Assembly: GCF_003634695.1 (NCBI RefSeq)
Contig: NZ_RBWV01000011.1
Location: 372,001-436,000 of the forward strand
Direction: 5' to 3'
DNA from: Motilibacter peucedani
GTDB taxonomy: Bacteria > Actinomycetota > Actinomycetes > Motilibacterales > Motilibacteraceae
DNA length: 64,000 bases
Numbering within the stretch: position 1 is the first letter of the stretch; each line of letters opens with the position of its first letter. This document shows, in pieces, positions 2,832-10,331 of the stretch. The notes under the pieces were generated by a model. It was not told the DNA's origin and did no database searches. It saw only the letters and a program-made list of their open reading frames with translations. A program made the translations under genes and the position numbers.

Positions 2832-3539
2832 GTGGCCGAGCAGATCCTGATCGTCGAGGACGACGACAGGATCCGCGCCATGTTGCGGCTGGCCCTCGAG
2901 GACGAGGGCTACGACGTCCGCGAGGCACCGAGCGGCGAGTCCGCCGTCGAGCAGATGCGCAGCGCCCCGGCCGACATGCTCATCGTCGACCTGATGCTCG
3001 GCGGCATGGACGGCTTCACCTGCATCCGGGAGGTCCGGCGCTCGAGCGACGCCCCGGTCATCGTGGTCAGCGCCCGGTCCGACACGCACGACATCGTCGC
3101 GGGGCTCGAGGCGGGAGCCGACGACTACGTGACGAAGCCGTTCCAGGTCAAGGAGATCACCGCCCGGCTGCGCGCCCTGCGCCGCCGTGCAGCGCGTCCG
3201 GACCCCGCTCCTGCGCTGCCCGGCGACCTGGTGCTCGCGCGGCGCGCCGACGGCGACCTCGTCCTGTCGCCGGCGGCCGGCGAGCTGCGCCGCGGCGACG
3301 AGGAGGTGCACCTGACGCTCACCGAGTTCCGCCTGCTCTGCGAGCTGGCCGCGGTGCCGCGGCAGGTGCTCAGTCGCGGCACCCTGCTCGACAAGGTGTG
3401 GGACCAGGGGTTCTTCGGTGACGAGCGCCTCGTCGACGTGCACGTGAGGCGGCTGCGCACCAAGGTCGAGGAGGACCCGGGCTCGCCACGGGTGATCGTG
3501 ACGGTGCGCGGCCTCGGCTACCGCCTCGACCCGGCGTGA
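2832..3539 (+). CDS. OmpR/PhoB-family response regulator
   Basis: DNA-binding response regulator of 235 residues. The receiver domain (1-120) has the acidic pair D10/D11, phospho-acceptor D53 in IVDLMLGGMDGF and K102 in YVTKPF. A winged-helix output domain follows (about 135-235) with LTLTEFRLLCELA, DVHVRRLRTKVE and VRGLGYRLD. GTG was chosen because the receiver domain begins right after it. Its stop overlaps the start of the histidine kinase (GTGA), which in turn overlaps a GerMN lipoprotein. This order resembles MtrA-MtrB-LpqB and CseB-CseC systems of actinobacteria that monitor the cell envelope; the signal here is unknown. Confidence 0.9.
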   Translation: MAEQILIVEDDDRIRAMLRLALEDEGYDVREAPSGESAVEQMRSAPADMLIVDLMLGGMDGFTCIREVRRSSDAPVIVVSARSDTHDIVAGLEAGADDYVTKPFQVKEITARLRALRRRAARPDPAPALPGDLVLARRADGDLVLSPAAGELRRGDEEVHLTLTEFRLLCELAAVPRQVLSRGTLLDKVWDQGFFGDERLVDVHVRRLRTKVEEDPGSPRVIVTVRGLGYRLDPA

Positions 3540-4909
3540 GGCTGCCCGCCGCCCGGAGGTGGCCGCGCAGCCTGCGCCGTCGGCAGGCGCTCGCGTCCGC
3601 GGTCGCGGGCCTGGCGGTGGCCGTCCTGTCGGCGGGCGCGACGTACGAGCTCGCGCGCACCTTCCTGCTCGACCAGCGCCAGCGCACGGTGCTGCGCCAG
3701 ACCTACCTGGACGCTGCCGTGCTGCAGGCGCAGCTGCGCACGGCGGGGGTCCGTCCCTCCGAGGCCCTCGCCGCGCTCGACAGCCGCGGCGCCACCGCGC
3801 TGCTGCTGCACCGGCAGGGCTCGTGGTACTCCAGCTCCCTCGATGTCGACTCCCGATCGCTGCCGCGCGAGCTGGTGGAGGCGGTGCGGGGCCAGAGCGT
3901 GGCCGTCGTCCCGGCCCGCGTGCTCGGCGCGCCCAGCCTCGTCGTCGGCGTCCCCCTGCCGGCCGTCGACGCCGAGGTCTACGAGGTGCGCCCGCAGCAG
4001 GAGCTCCAGCAGACCCTGCGCACGCTCGCGCTCGTCCTGGCGAGCGGTGCCGCCGCCGCCACGGTCCTCTCGGCCGCGCTCGGCGCCTGGAGCGGCCGCG
4101 CCGTGCTCCGCCCGCTCGACCCGCTGGCCAGCACCGCGGCCGCGATCGCGAGCGGCGAGCTCTCGCACCGCCTGCCCGACACCGACGACCCCGAGCTCTC
4201 GACGATCGTGGCCAGCTTCAACTCGATGGCCGACGCGGTGCAGCAGCGGATCGAGCGCGACGCACGGTTCGCCGCGGACGTCAGCCACGAGCTGCGCTCC
4301 CCGCTCACGACACTGGTCGGGTCCGTGGACCTGCTCGTCGCCCGCAAGCACGAGCTCTCGCCCGCCGGCCGCACGGCCCTCACGCTCGTCGAGGAGGAGC
4401 TGGCGCGGCTGCGCACGCTGCTGGAGGACCTCATCGCGCTCTCGCGTGCGGACCCCGCCGCCCTGCGGGGCGAGAGCCGCACCTTCGACCTGCGCGACCT
4501 GGTGCGCCAGCTGCTCGCCGACCGGCGCCAGCCGCCCGAGCTGCTGCTCGCCCGTGGCCCGCAGGCGGTGACCGGCGACCCCCGGGTGCTGGCCCGAGCC
4601 GTCGCCAACCTGCTGGACAACGCCCAGCGGCACGGCGGCGGCGCGGTCGCCGTCGTCATCGACGCCGACGGCGACGACGTCCTGCTCTCCGTCGACGACG
4701 CAGGTCCCGGTGTGCCGCCGCACGAACGGGACCGCGTCTTCGAGCGCTTCGCGACCCTGAAGGGGGCGCGCGGGTCCACGTCGGGCAGCGGGCTCGGCCT
4801 CGCCCTGGTGAGGGAGTCGGCCGAGGCGCACGGCGGAGCGGTGTGGTGCTCGGAACGACCGGGCGGCGGCGCCCGCTTCACCGTGCGGCTGCCGCGGGCG
4901 GACGCATGA
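3536..4909 (+). CDS. Sensor histidine kinase
   Basis: Membrane histidine kinase of 457 residues. An N-terminal helix (residues 17-36) is followed by an extracytoplasmic region of about 120 residues, a second helix (LALVLASGAAAATVLSAALG), a HAMP linker, the DHp box VSHELRSPL with the phospho-histidine near residue 250, and an ATPase domain with N box (NLLDNAQRHGG), G1 (DAGPGVPPHER), F box (VFERF) and G2 (GSGLGLALV). Both ends are coupled by 4-nt overlaps to the response regulator and the lipoprotein, so the three form one operon. The sensor domain resembles no ligand-binding family that I recognise. Confidence 0.9.
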   Translation: MRLPAARRWPRSLRRRQALASAVAGLAVAVLSAGATYELARTFLLDQRQRTVLRQTYLDAAVLQAQLRTAGVRPSEALAALDSRGATALLLHRQGSWYSSSLDVDSRSLPRELVEAVRGQSVAVVPARVLGAPSLVVGVPLPAVDAEVYEVRPQQELQQTLRTLALVLASGAAAATVLSAALGAWSGRAVLRPLDPLASTAAAIASGELSHRLPDTDDPELSTIVASFNSMADAVQQRIERDARFAADVSHELRSPLTTLVGSVDLLVARKHELSPAGRTALTLVEEELARLRTLLEDLIALSRADPAALRGESRTFDLRDLVRQLLADRRQPPELLLARGPQAVTGDPRVLARAVANLLDNAQRHGGGAVAVVIDADGDDVLLSVDDAGPGVPPHERDRVFERFATLKGARGSTSGSGLGLALVRESAEAHGGAVWCSERPGGGARFTVRLPRADA

Positions 4910-5517: not shown

Positions 5518-6750
5518 ACCCGCGCACGGCCGGCGGGCCCCACCGCGGCGCAGCGCGACGAGCGCGGCCGAGGACGCCACGACGGCCAGCACGCCGATCG
5601 CCGCTGGGAGCCCCGTCACCAGCGTGCTGGTCGCCGCGCCGGCCACCCACGCGAGCTGGAAGGCACCCTCCCAGCGCGTGATGAGCCCGCCCCGCGCCGC
5701 GTCCGGCACCCGCCGCTGGACGGTGCTGTCGAAGCCGAGCCTCGCCACCGAGCTGGCGAGCCCCACGGTCGCGGCGAGCAGCAGCGTTCGCGGCAGGTCG
5801 GGCCCCGAGGCTGCGCAGCCGGCGGCGAGGCCGACCGCGAGGAGTACGCCGGGTGCAGACAGCTGCTCGGCCGCCCGCCGCTGCAGCACCCCGCCCACCA
5901 CGGTCCCGAGGGCGGCGCCGCACGCGGCAGCGGCAGCAGCGAGGGAGAGCACCGCGGGCTGGGTACGCAGCGCCAGCGCGAGCACGAAGGTCGTGGAGCC
6001 GACCGCCCACCGGACCCCGGCGGTGGCGAGGCCGACCGCCGCGACCTCGGCGGGCTGAGCGTACCGACCGGTTCCTCGGCGACCACCCGGCGCGCGCCGG
6101 CTCGGGCTCGTACGCGGGGGCAGGGCTCCGGCGAGCACGGCGTTGCAGGCGTACGCCGCTGCTGCCCAGCAGAGGACCGGGAGTCCCGTGACGAACGGAC
6201 CGACGACCGCTGCGCCGGCGCCGGCGGCACCTCCCGCGGAGGCCACGGCGGAGAGCGTCGCGTTGGCTCGGCCTCCGGTCCACCGCACCGGCTGGTAGCA
6301 CGGCACGCACGCCGCACGGACGATGCCGTGCGCCCGGGAGGCGACGCGCACGGCGAGGACGAGAGCGAACGCAAAGGCCTCCGCGAGCAGCGGGCCCTCT
6401 CCCGCGAGCAGGGACGGACCCGACGCCGCGAGCAGCAGCGCGACGAGGGCGACGCGCGCCCCACCGCAGACCGCGAGCACGTGTCGCGGCTCGAGACCGC
6501 CGCGGTCCAGCACCCGACCGAGGAACGGCAGGAGCAGGGCGACGGGCACCATCGTCAGCACCAGGCAGAAGACCGTCCTCGTCTGTTGCGCACCGGTCGG
6601 CGCGACGACGAAGACGCTGTGCGCCAGCGCGACGGCGAAGGCCGAGTCACCGGCGGAGTGCGCCGCCTGAGCGCTCGCGAACGACCGGAAGGCGCGCCAC
6701 TGGACCGCGTCAGGTGCCGAGGGCCGGCCCGTGCTCCGGGGTGAGCTCAT
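5518..6750 (-). CDS. MFS transporter (no in-frame stop at its natural end)
   Basis: Major facilitator protein. About 410 residues are coherent, with 10-12 hydrophobic segments, an early loop rich in charged residues (LGRVLDRGGLEPRH) and pseudo-symmetric halves, as in exporters of the drug-efflux group. The coherent part ends near 5518, next to the convergent lipoprotein gene, but the reading frame does not stop there: the first in-frame stop is at 3979, so the frame would run another 510 codons antisense to the lipoprotein and kinase. Either the last stop was lost by a small mutation or sequence error, or the protein has an unusual basic tail. The ATG overlaps the BON-gene stop (ATGA), so they are co-transcribed. 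Confidence 0.75.
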
Positions 6751-7034
6751 CCACCGTCGACCTCGGGCCAGGCGTCACGCGGGAAGCGCACCTGGTTGCT
6801 CACGTCGCGAGCGCCCGGGGTCTCGACCGCGATGCGGCTGGCGGCCGCGAGGACCGCACGGTCCGGGACCTTTCCGCGGAGGACGACGACGCCGGCACAC
6901 GCACTCACCCGGAGCCGCGCGCGCTTCGTGACAGGGTCCGACCGCAGCCGCTCCCTCGTCCGCAGCGCGAGGAGCGTGTCGGCGTCCTGGGGCGGCGCAG
7001 CCTCCATGGGCAGCATCCACTCGTACATGCTCAT
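6747..7034 (-). CDS. BON-domain protein
   Basis: Small protein of 95 residues with one BON domain: a charged N-terminal helix (ADTLLALRTRERLRSDP), then LRVSACAGVVVLRGKVPDR and a C-terminal half ending VSNQVRFP. BON domains bind phospholipid or associate with envelope and mechanosensitive proteins, and are common in osmotic-stress proteins. The start is the ATG at 7034 because AGGAG and ACGGAG lie just upstream and the BON fold begins soon after; a longer frame upstream lacks a ribosome site. It is the first gene of an operon with the MFS transporter and is divergent from a STAS gene. Confidence 0.8.
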   Translation of the reverse strand: MSMYEWMLPMEAAPPQDADTLLALRTRERLRSDPVTKRARLRVSACAGVVVLRGKVPDRAVLAAASRIAVETPGARDVSNQVRFPRDAWPEVDGG

Positions 7035-7206
7035 CTCCGTCTCCTGTCCTGGTGCTCGGAGGATTCCCACCGCCCTTTGCAGCTCCTCGCACGGTGCTGT
7101 TGCGATCGTGTGACGACCCGCTGCGCCGGTCCGCCCCGCGCAGCCGTCACGGAACCGCAACGTCATGGACAGCAGAGCCGCAAGGCGCACGCGGCAGGCT
7201 GGAGCC

Positions 7207-7590
7207 ATGCAGACGACGGTCTCGGCCTACCGCATCACCGGGACGTGCAGCGCTCCGTCGGCACCGGCAGCCAGCTCCTGCCGGGCCGTCGTGGTGGACA
7301 GGCACCCCGTGGCGCTCAGCGTCGAGCTCGCCGGCGAGATCGACATCGCGAGCGCAGGGTGCCTGGCAGCTGCCATGGAGCGCCTCGAGGCCGCTGCCTG
7401 GGAAGCGCCCCTCGTCATCGACGTCCAGCAGGTGAGCTTCGCGGACCTGACCCTGGTGCGCTTCGTCGACGAGCTGGCTGTGGTGGCGGGGCGCCGAGGT
7501 CTTCCCCTGCGCGTCGTCGGTGCGCACGGCGGCGTGCGCAGACTGCTCCGCCTCGTCGGGCTCGACGACGCGCTCGGGGTGACGAGCTAG
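7207..7590 (+). CDS. STAS-domain anti-sigma factor antagonist
   Basis: 127 residues, STAS domain. The strands LSVELAGEIDIASAGC and PLVIDVQQVSFADLTLVRF are the diagnostic parts. At the usual phospho-serine position the sequence reads FADLTLVRF, where Thr may substitute, so phosphorylation should not be assumed. Together with the STAS protein at 2336 and the ECF sigma factor downstream, it points to stress signalling. The ATG at 7207 is preceded by GGCTGGAG; an in-frame ATG at 7165 is possible but has no ribosome site. It is read in the same direction as the sigma factor gene, from which it is separated by an ECF41-type promoter. Confidence 0.82.
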   Translation: MQTTVSAYRITGTCSAPSAPAASSCRAVVVDRHPVALSVELAGEIDIASAGCLAAAMERLEAAAWEAPLVIDVQQVSFADLTLVRFVDELAVVAGRRGLPLRVVGAHGGVRRLLRLVGLDDALGVTS

Positions 7591-7621: not shown

Positions 7622-7648
7622 GGTCACACCTCCGGCCGCCTGCTCGTC
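7622..7648 (+). promoter_or_regulatory. Predicted ECF41 promoter, sigma gene autoregulation
   Basis: A -35 GGTCACA (7622-7628), a 16-nt spacer, and a -10 CGTC (7645-7648). The consensus I recall for ECF41 sigma factors is TGTCACA-N16-CGTC, so the spacing is exact and one base of the -35 differs. It lies 38 nt upstream of the ATG of the ECF41 gene itself. Confidence 0.6.
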
Positions 7649-7686
7649 GAGGGTGTGTGTCGACGACGCAGACCTGGAGGAGCCCG

Positions 7687-8517
7687 ATGGACCGCACGGA
7701 GTCGTTCGCGGCGGAGCGGCCGCGCCTGGTGGGACTCGCCAGCCGCGTCCTCGGCGACCCCGTCGAGGCCGAGGACGTCGTGCAGCAGGCGTGGCTCCGG
7801 CTGCACGCGGTCGAGTCGGAGATCGAGAACCTGCCCGCCTGGCTCACCACGGTGACCACCCGGCTGTGCCTCGACAGGCTCCGGGCGGTGAAGTCCGCTC
7901 CGGTGTCCAGTCCCCCCGAGCCGGCGGCCGACCCCGCGGACGACGTGGTGCTGGCCGACACCGTCGGAGTCGCCCTTCATGCGGTCCTCGACCGGCTCTC
8001 CCCGGCCGAACGAGTCGCCTTCGTGCTCCACGACAGCTTCGGCTTCGAGTTCCCCACCATCGCCGCGGTGCTGGACACGACGCCGGTCGCCGCGCGCAAG
8101 CTGGCCTCCCGGGCACGCGCGAAGGTGCGGCAGCCGGCGCCTGAGGACCGGCTGGCCGACTGGGAGGTGGTGGACGCCTTCCTGGCGGCCGCGCGCAACG
8201 GCGACTTCGACCGGCTGATGCAGCTGCTCGCGCCGGACGTCGTCGTCACCGCGGACGACGCCGCGATCCTCATGGGCACACCTCGTCGCATCGAGGGCCA
8301 GCGCGAGGTGGCGAACTTCTTCGACGGCGCCGCCCGGGCGGCGCTCCCGGTCTTCGTCGACGCCCGTCCCGGGGCGGCCTGGTTCCACGTGGGCGAGGCG
8401 AAGGTGGTCTTCGACTTCACGGTCGCCGCGGGCGTGGTCCGCTCCCTCACGTTCCGCGCCGACCAGGAGGTCCTGCGTACGGTACGCCGCCGGCAGGACG
8501 ACTCACCGCGGGACTAG
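7687..8517 (+). CDS. ECF41 (SigJ-like) sigma factor with fused SnoaL-like domain
   Basis: 276-residue sigma factor. Region 2 (residues 1-75) contains VLGDPVEAEDVVQQAWLRL. Region 4 (about 105-160) contains LSPAERVAFVLHDSFGF and the helix-turn-helix IAAVLDTTPVAARKLASRAR. The remaining 110 residues form a SnoaL/NTF2-like domain (VVDAFLAAARNGDFDRLMQLL). This architecture defines group ECF41, where the fused domain replaces a separate anti-sigma factor and modulates activity. ATG at 7687 follows GGAGGA; a GTG 30 nt upstream is less likely. ECF41 genes usually neighbour an oxidoreductase, epimerase or decarboxylase gene; here the next gene is DUF1059, with a matching promoter. Confidence 0.9.
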   Translation: MDRTESFAAERPRLVGLASRVLGDPVEAEDVVQQAWLRLHAVESEIENLPAWLTTVTTRLCLDRLRAVKSAPVSSPPEPAADPADDVVLADTVGVALHAVLDRLSPAERVAFVLHDSFGFEFPTIAAVLDTTPVAARKLASRARAKVRQPAPEDRLADWEVVDAFLAAARNGDFDRLMQLLAPDVVVTADDAAILMGTPRRIEGQREVANFFDGAARAALPVFVDARPGAAWFHVGEAKVVFDFTVAAGVVRSLTFRADQEVLRTVRRRQDDSPRD

Positions 8518-8525
8518 TGCGAGCC

Positions 8526-8552
8526 GGTCACACCCGGCGCTCGACCACCGTC
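8526..8552 (+). promoter_or_regulatory. Predicted ECF41 promoter of DUF1059 gene
   Basis: GGTCACA (8526-8532), 16 nt, CGTC (8549-8552). Both boxes and the spacing are identical to the site at 7622-7648, while the spacer sequences differ. It lies 36 nt upstream of the GTG of the DUF1059 gene. The repetition beside the sigma gene makes this the likely primary target promoter. Confidence 0.6.
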
Positions 8553-8588: not shown

Positions 8589-8825
8589 GTGAAGACCATG
8601 ACCTGCAAGCAGCTCGGCGGCCCGTGCGGCTTCGAGCACCGGGGCGAGTCCGCCGACGACGTCATCAAGGCGCAGGACCGCCACCTCAAGGAGGCCGAGC
8701 AGGCCGGGGATGTGACGCACCTGGGCGCGCGCAACGAGATGAAGAGCCGCTGGCGGCACCCCCGGAGGTCGATGGGGTGGTACCGCGACGTGAAGCGGGC
8801 GTTCGCCGAGCTGTCCGAGGGCTGA
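8589..8825 (+). CDS. DUF1059 small protein
   Basis: 78 residues, matching DUF1059 along its length: the start MTCKQLGGPCGFEHRG, the middle ADDVIKAQDRHLKEAEQAGD and the end RSMGWYRDVKRAF. Two cysteines in the N-terminal CKQLGGPC may bind metal, which is inference; the family has no established activity that I know of. GTG at 8589 follows AGGAG. The gene is monocistronic behind an apparent ECF41 promoter, which makes it a candidate member of the sigma factor's regulon. Confidence 0.85.
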   Translation: MKTMTCKQLGGPCGFEHRGESADDVIKAQDRHLKEAEQAGDVTHLGARNEMKSRWRHPRRSMGWYRDVKRAFAELSEG

Positions 8826-9112: not shown

Positions 9113-9901
9113 ATGGACAACAGAACGACAGACACCGCCCAGACCGTCCACGGCCACAGCTCGCAGTGCTGGTGGGACGTCGCACGAGCGGACTGGACCT
9201 GCCCCGGCCAGCGCCCGGCCGTCGTGACCGTGCGCGAGACCGAGCCCGCTCTCGTCGACGTGCGCGACATGCTGGTGGTGCACACCGCGATGCTGCGCGA
9301 GTTCCGCCTCGCGCCGGCAGCCGTCGCCCGCGTGCCCGCCGGTTCACGGGCGGCCGCCCGCGCCGTCGAGCGCCACCTGGCCCTGCTCTGCGACCTGCTG
9401 CACCACCACCACGCCGGGGAGGACGAGCTGCTGTGGCCGGCTCTGCGCCCGAGGCTCCCGGCTTCCGCGGTCGCCCTGCTCGACGAGGCCGAGGCTCAGC
9501 ACGACGGCATCGACCGCACCCTCGCGCGGGTCGGCGAGTCGCGCCAGGCCTGGGTACGCCGTGCGGACGCCGCGGACCGCGACCTCCTCGTCGCGGCGCT
9601 GCAGGACCTGCATGCGCTGCTCGCGGAGCACCTCGACGCGGAGGAGCGCCTCCTCCTCCCGCTCGCCGCTGCCTACCTCACCGAGCAGGAGTGGCGGGCG
9701 ATCGGCGAGGCCGGCGCCGGCTCGGTGGGCAAGCGCGACCTGCCCCTGGTCTTCGGGATGTTCATGTACGAGGGCGACCCCGAGGTGCTGGCCGCCATGC
9801 TCTCCGGCGCCCCTCGCGTGCCGCGGATGCTCGTGCCGCGCATCGCACCCCGCATCTACGCCCGGCGCGCCGCGAAGGTCCACGGCACACGCCGACCCTG
9901 A
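9113..9901 (+). CDS. Hemerythrin HHE-domain protein
   Basis: 262 residues. A hemerythrin-like four-helix bundle spans about residues 50-200: an early His in VVHTAMLREF, LLHHHHAGEDELLWPAL, EAQHDGIDRTL and LLAEHLDAEERLLLPL. These histidines and acidic residues match the HHE di-iron ligand pattern. Such proteins sense or scavenge oxygen, nitric oxide or peroxide. The C-terminal 60 residues (FGMFMYEGDPEVLAAML onward) are typical of the actinobacterial subgroup. ATG at 9113 begins the conserved part; an upstream in-frame ATG at 9068 is not needed. It lies in a stress-related neighbourhood beside ECF41 and SnoaL-like genes. Confidence 0.85.
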   Translation: MDNRTTDTAQTVHGHSSQCWWDVARADWTCPGQRPAVVTVRETEPALVDVRDMLVVHTAMLREFRLAPAAVARVPAGSRAAARAVERHLALLCDLLHHHHAGEDELLWPALRPRLPASAVALLDEAEAQHDGIDRTLARVGESRQAWVRRADAADRDLLVAALQDLHALLAEHLDAEERLLLPLAAAYLTEQEWRAIGEAGAGSVGKRDLPLVFGMFMYEGDPEVLAAMLSGAPRVPRMLVPRIAPRIYARRAAKVHGTRRP

Positions 9902-9950: not shown

Positions 9951-10331
9951 ATGGGCACACCGACCGACCCCGCCGACTTGAACGACCAGTGGTGCAGGGC
10001 CTTCAACGAAGGCGACCTGGCACGGCTGGTGCAGATGTACGAACCCGACGCCGTGCTTGTCCCCGCACCCGGCGCAGAGCCGCTGCGGGGTCACACAGCG
10101 ATCGAAGCTGCGCTCGACGCGTTCCTGGCGCTGGGCGGCTCCCTGCGCTTCAGCCCCCGTCACTGGCTGGTCCACGGCGACATCGCCTTGGGAAGCATCA
10201 CCTTCGAGCTCGACGGCGCCCATGACAGCGACGGAGCTCCCCTCGCCCTGCACGGCACCACGGCAGAGGTCGTCCGCCGACAGCCCGACGGCAGCTGGAA
10301 GTACGTCGTCGACCACCCGTTCGCAGGCTGA
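9951..10331 (+). CDS. SnoaL-like (NTF2-fold) protein
   Basis: 126 residues with an NTF2/SnoaL-like fold: an N-terminal helix (LNDQWCRAFNEGDLARLVQMY), then EPDAVLVPAPG, GHTAIEAALDAFLAL and a final strand KYVVDHPFAG. Proteins of this kind (also called DUF4440 or YybH-like) bind or isomerise small ligands. No catalytic residues can be assigned. ATG follows GAGGGACC. It is read 49 nt after the hemerythrin gene and may share its transcript. Confidence 0.8.
   Translation: MGTPTDPADLNDQWCRAFNEGDLARLVQMYEPDAVLVPAPGAEPLRGHTAIEAALDAFLALGGSLRFSPRHWLVHGDIALGSITFELDGAHDSDGAPLALHGTTAEVVRRQPDGSWKYVVDHPFAG

Follow-up and report, generated by a model that had tools for sequence, protein, structure and literature searches.

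Conserved ECF41-type promoter motifs link a sigma factor of a distinct ECF41-like clade to a DUF1059 gene in Motilibacter peucedani and other Actinomycetes

The consensus promoter of the ECF41 sigma factors is TGTCACA-N16-CGTC, and their main targets are the so-called COE genes, which encode carboxymuconolactone decarboxylases, oxidoreductases and epimerases (PMC3426412). About 30% of the published ECF41 members have no neighbouring COE gene, and hypothetical and cupin genes that carry an ECF41 promoter have been listed as 'Miscellaneous' cases (PMC3426412). Another sigma factor of interest here is SigG1 of Streptomyces tsukubaensis (ECF56), which has a co-transcribed anti-sigma factor, RsfG, and a CCG / CCCTCC promoter (PMC7730460). 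The initial annotation of the locus described here gave the same ECF41 consensus and the same families as usual neighbours (oxidoreductase, epimerase and decarboxylase genes), in agreement with PMC3426412 on both counts. In the literature searched, functional work on DUF1059 is practically absent: of 5.39 million papers two mention it, neither of them together with ECF41, although supplementary tables may contain an earlier mention.

The locus lies in a stretch of 64,000 nucleotides of the Motilibacter peucedani genome, referred to as the window. Two tandem genes are found there, separated by an intergenic gap of 71 bp. The first (7687..8517, + strand) encodes an ECF sigma factor of 276 aa with a C-terminal SnoaL-like domain and has an ATG start with an RBS-like GGAGG a few bases upstream, while the second (8589..8825, + strand) encodes a DUF1059 (PF06348) protein of 78 aa and has a GTG start with an RBS-like AGGAG a few bases upstream. 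Each is preceded by a predicted ECF41-like promoter on the + strand. That of the sigma gene, GGTCACACCTCCGGCCGCCTGCTCGTC (7622..7648), comprises the -35 box GGTCACA (7622-7628), a 16-bp spacer and the -10 box CGTC (7645-7648), and ends 38 bp 5' of the ATG; that of the DUF1059 gene, GGTCACACCCGGCGCTCGACCACCGTC (8526..8552), comprises GGTCACA (8526-8532), a 16-bp spacer and CGTC (8549-8552), and ends 36 bp 5' of the GTG. Both fit GGTCACA-N16-CGTC, with identical boxes of 7 and 4 bp, and the positions, boxes and spacing first reported for this pair are confirmed exactly. Directly 5' of the sigma gene there is a STAS-domain gene of the anti-sigma antagonist type (7165-7590, +), and beyond it a BON-domain gene (6747-7208, -). 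On the 3' side of the DUF1059 gene follow the genes of a hemerythrin HHE protein (9113-9901, +) and of a stand-alone SnoaL/DUF4440-like protein (9951-10331, +); KGTCACA-N16-CGTC is absent upstream of both.

These two sites are the only matches to KGTCACA-N16-CGTC in the 64-kb window, where 0.16 were expected, and one of 100 shuffles contained two. A scan of the whole 4.19-Mb assembly, one of the checks proposed with the initial annotation, returned six matches (three GGTCACA and three TGTCACA) against two for a reversed control pattern. The three GGTCACA sites lie upstream of the sigma gene, the DUF1059 gene and, on another contig, a VOC gene; this third site (contig C12:444956-444982, equal to L006:1501-1527) begins 84 bp 5' of the start codon of a gene (L006:1585-1926, +) for a VOC/glyoxalase-fold protein of 113 aa (PF00903). 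None of the three TGTCACA sites is clearly 5' of a gene, and one of them falls within a long ORF.

The conservation of the arrangement was assessed by scanning 84,980 species, which yielded 374 relatives, and by studying the best 80 of these 374 loci. ECF41-DUF1059 neighbourhoods, whose examination in other genomes had also been suggested, amounted to 69 linked pairs in this set. The strict motif, at most 200 bp upstream of the start, precedes 56 of the 80 DUF1059 genes and 41 of the 69 linked sigma genes, and the relaxed form, GTCAC-N17-CGTC, raises these figures to 66 of 80 and 56 of 69; such locus counts are not counts of independent events, since neighbouring species share ancestry, and the presence of the motif in several families and gene orders is a stronger argument than the raw numbers. 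Shuffled upstream regions gave a mean of 0.055 strict matches over 80 sequences, and 97 of the 101 strict matches in the 80 loci are located upstream of a sigma or a DUF1059 gene. When the spacer was varied from 10 to 22 bp, a length of 16 gave the 56 and 41 matches and no other length gave more than two. Among 65 non-redundant DUF1059 promoters the information is concentrated in the -35 box, the CGTC box and the A that follows it, and the spacer is weakly conserved. Since GTCAC and CGTC are built into the relaxed pattern, only the other positions are informative there, and it is the spacer scan that provides an independent test. The first position of the -35 box is usually G (75%), with a C before it.

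With respect to gene order, 63 of the 69 linked pairs are tandem, four convergent and two divergent. Every one of the 69 linked DUF1059 genes is served by a motif: 57 have one of their own, and for the other 12 it is placed at the operon head. The 12 genes without a motif of their own have shorter or overlapping gaps to the sigma gene (Mann-Whitney p = 6e-5), and a strict or relaxed motif was found at each of the operon heads. Among these 12, Millisia brevis (L164, ~3530-3960, +) shows a variant order: the motif lies 5' of a gene whose product of ~143 aa has no Pfam match, and the DUF1059 and sigma genes come next, in that order, apparently within one operon. In the convergent loci (L136, L137, L145 and L162) the motif is kept before DUF1059 in four of four, in relaxed form in L137 and in strict form in the other three; on the sigma side it is absent in three and relaxed in L162, and it is mainly in convergent loci that some sigma genes have no promoter motif. 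The tandem arrangement in Motilibacter peucedani, with 71 bp between the genes, and the 12 of 63 tandem relatives in which DUF1059 has no motif of its own could be taken to mean that the two motifs are chance or duplicated sequence, not promoters, and that DUF1059 is merely co-transcribed with the sigma gene. This is extremely improbable and already contradicted by the conservation, since the boxes are conserved over the 65 non-redundant promoters and the spacer is not, and since the motif is kept in convergent, divergent and unlinked genes. The original proposal that twin ECF41 promoters link the sigma factor to DUF1059 is supported: the 16-bp spacer is fixed in dozens of genomes with tandem, divergent or convergent genes, and the motif is mostly absent before orphan DUF1059 genes.

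The sigma factor itself contains the Pfam domains sigma70_r2 and sigma70_r4_2 and a sub-threshold SnoaL_2 (PF12680, 23.6 bits against a cut-off of 27). Its predicted model has a mean pLDDT of 82 and a pTM of 0.44, the latter making the relative orientation of the domains unreliable; the best structural match is SigJ (5xe7) and the second SigG1 (7qh5), and the predicted fold of the extension resembles SigJ and ketosteroid-isomerase-fold proteins. The layout expected of ECF41, namely sigma2, sigma4 and a C-terminal SnoaL-like domain, is present. The close relatives form a monophyletic clade (100/100), from which the canonical ECF41 sigmas found in the same genus and in the same family are separate. 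The motifs WLPEP (in the sigma2-sigma4 linker), YVGPW, DGGG and NPDKL each occur in 0 of 70 clade members, and a V-x-FDF motif is found in the SnoaL domain of 67 of the 70. In the same alignment, the canonical relatives from the genus and family of Motilibacter peucedani (L024-L026) have WLPEP and DGGG, and one of them (L024) has NPDKL as well. The sigma factor would work like an ECF41 and belongs to a distinct ECF41-like clade, for which ECF41, ECF294 and ECF295 are candidate groups; strict ECF41 membership is not claimed because WLPEP, DGGG and NPDKL are absent. The designation as ECF41 in the initial annotation stands as regards the SnoaL-like extension and the promoter type, and fails as regards a canonical member.

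Close relatives of this sigma factor (64-76% identity, the next best being at ~50%) are present in 28 of 394 Actinomycetes genomes, Motilibacter peucedani included. The DUF1059 subfamily is present in 40 of the 394, that is, in 28 of 28 genomes with the clade sigma and in 12 of the 366 others. The distance between both genes is at most ~1.5 kb in nearly all genomes that have them, and ~5 kb in one (G184). The sigma factor of the window pairs in the tree with a Nocardioides sequence (support 97/87). Among five Motilibacterales genomes examined, the DUF1059 subfamily occurs only in Motilibacter peucedani; its relatives have ECF41-like sigmas that share 41-45% identity with that of the window and contain the canonical motifs. 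The sigma-DUF1059 module is therefore sporadic, and this distribution suggests horizontal transfer or repeated loss.

The unlinked cases are also informative. In Enemella (L104) the clade sigma is unlinked and has its own motif, and DUF1059 keeps the motif in trans; in Flexivirga (L110) the clade sigma is likewise located away from DUF1059. In genomes without the clade sigma, DUF1059 is generally without the motif (L053, L056, L103, L176-L183). The exceptions are L126, L130, L142, L157 and L175, in which an unlinked DUF1059 has the motif and the nearest sigma is only ~50% identical. In these, DUF1059 may be controlled by a sister ECF41-like sigma, several of which have a TGTCACA autopromoter, or else the clade sigma may be absent from the draft assembly; in one MAG (L127), DUF1059 has the motif and the clade sigma was not found. 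Since the autopromoters of sister and canonical ECF41-like sigmas, TGTCAC-N17-CGTC, are close to the motif described here, another ECF41-like sigma of the genome might recognise both promoters in Motilibacter peucedani, the linked sigma just sharing the promoter. This is quite improbable: the linked sigma, although below the cut-off of the SigJ model (194 against 271 bits), is the sole strong SigJ-family match in the genome, the next one scoring 108 bits with 28% identity, and the clade sigma and DUF1059 co-occur in 28 of 28 genomes. Recognition by the linked sigma is the preferred reading.

The VOC gene is not confined to Motilibacter peucedani. In Flexivirga the clade sigma that lies away from DUF1059 is divergent from a VOC gene with GGTCACA-N16-CGTC (L167), and a VOC gene with the motif is also present in G135. 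A further one occurs in G010, where the strict search gave no clade sigma, although the same contig carries an ECF41-family sigma. In two actinomycete genomes that have no clade sigma (L177 and L179), a VOC gene lies directly 5' of DUF1059, with a 4-bp overlap in L179; this order independently hints at a VOC association. The idea that the VOC gene is a core member of the regulon was rejected: only 2 of the 28 genomes with the clade sigma contain a close VOC relative, and where the clade sigma is missing, the VOC loci that were examined have no motif, except in G010. A wider regulon is also unlikely, as GGTCACAY-N15-CGTC has few sites per genome beyond sigma and DUF1059 in 29 genomes, and several of the remaining sites, which were not read singly, look like recurrent coding sequence. 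The conserved promoter link speaks for DUF1059 as the target first proposed, with the correction that it is not the sole other gene with the promoter, the VOC gene being a further one here.

The DUF1059 gene product matches PF06348 with 24.3 bits (cut-off 21.1), the match covering positions 1-36 of the 56-position profile. The same genome encodes a second, more typical DUF1059 protein (contig C9:144726-144890, L007; 69.9 bits over nearly the full profile). Over 20 sequences the subfamily has 28 invariant positions, among them Cys6, Cys13, His32, His44, Trp55 and Trp64. The AlphaFold2 model, which has high confidence (pLDDT 95.5), shows a small beta-alpha protein. A PDB search allowing E values up to 1 gave no sequence relative, and no fold match was convincing (best E of 3.1 with Foldseek, best Z of 2.3 with VIA-align), an absence that does not amount to a new fold. 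Orphan DUF1059 proteins, whose genomes have no clade sigma, retain almost every invariant residue, and the function of DUF1059 is therefore independent of the sigma factor. This bears on the idea that DUF1059 acts on the sigma factor as a feedback partner (a small anti-sigma, a co-sensor, or a thiol or metal switch replacing the lost WLPEP-NPDKL latch) and not as a metabolic effector. Such a role would fit the lack of the ECF41 autoinhibitory motifs in the clade, the presence of DUF1059 in every clade-sigma genome sampled, the two invariant cysteines (Cys6 and Cys13) and the correlation of sigma and DUF1059 pairwise distances (r = 0.59, 70 pairs), which shared ancestry by itself predicts. It is nonetheless unlikely, given that the orphans point to a protein that works alone and that ECF41 factors are reported to need no second protein as anti-sigma (PMC3426412). 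Equally doubtful is a scheme in which the latch-free clade, having dropped WLPEP and NPDKL, would constitute a two-gene sensor-effector module whose DUF1059 protein, through its invariant cysteine pair, both responds and feeds back on the sigma factor.

The reading of DUF1059 as an effector is retained. Promoter presence, spacing, conservation, phyletic coupling and independence of orientation are all observed, and the regulatory interpretation drawn from the sequences is that, with high probability, an autoregulated SnoaL-fused sigma factor drives itself and DUF1059, very probably its main target, and sometimes a VOC gene. The sigma factor would be a one-component regulator in which a SnoaL/NTF2-like domain is joined to sigma2 and sigma4; this domain is probably the sensor, for a small ligand or for the state of the cell. 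In its active form it would recognise (G/T)GTCACA-N16-CGTC(A) and transcribe its own gene, in positive feedback, together with the DUF1059 gene, whose product would be a conserved effector and not a bystander; in some genomes, including that of Motilibacter peucedani, it would also transcribe an unlinked VOC (glyoxalase-fold) gene. To judge from the other targets of ECF41 factors and from the VOC link, the output may be a function in detoxification or of a stress type. Overall, there is strong comparative support for a real and conserved regulatory link between the sigma factor and DUF1059, with DUF1059 as a new partner and the clade as a distinct branch within a known kind of system. For the DUF1059 subfamily this means that a conserved regulator and a defined promoter are now assigned to it, possibly along with a co-regulated VOC gene, and its function can therefore be approached via the sigma regulon. 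In addition, the clade lacks the motifs to which autoinhibition of ECF41 factors is attributed, and is a natural variant on which the published latch model can be tested.

Compared with described systems, the sigma factor resembles ECF41 members such as SigJ of M. tuberculosis, Ecf41Bli and Ecf41Rsp (PMC3426412) in its sigma2-sigma4 core with a C-terminal SnoaL-like extension, in having (K)GTCACA-N16-CGTC on itself and on a neighbouring target with no obvious adjacent anti-sigma, and in the best structural match of its model, SigJ 5xe7. It differs from them in that the clade prefers G at the first -35 base (75%), where the ECF41 consensus has T, in that WLPEP, DGGG and NPDKL are absent in 70 of 70 clade members and the window sigma scores under the SigJ cut-off, and in that the target is DUF1059 in place of a COE enzyme; a Pfam scan of neighbouring genes in the window gave no COE gene, the conserved neighbour being DUF1059. 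With the ECF56 factor SigG1 it shares a SnoaL_2 extension without NPDKL, 7qh5 being the second structural match, but the promoter here is GTCAC-N17-CGTC and not CCG / CCCTCC, and no RsfG-like anti-sigma gene was recognised next to the sigma gene in the Pfam scan of the neighbours. Finally, the locus is like the 'Miscellaneous' class (PMC3426412) in that a small non-COE gene with the promoter adjoins an ECF41-type gene; unlike in that class, where the searched text of PMC3426412 does not name DUF1059, this gene is here a conserved partner in many genera.
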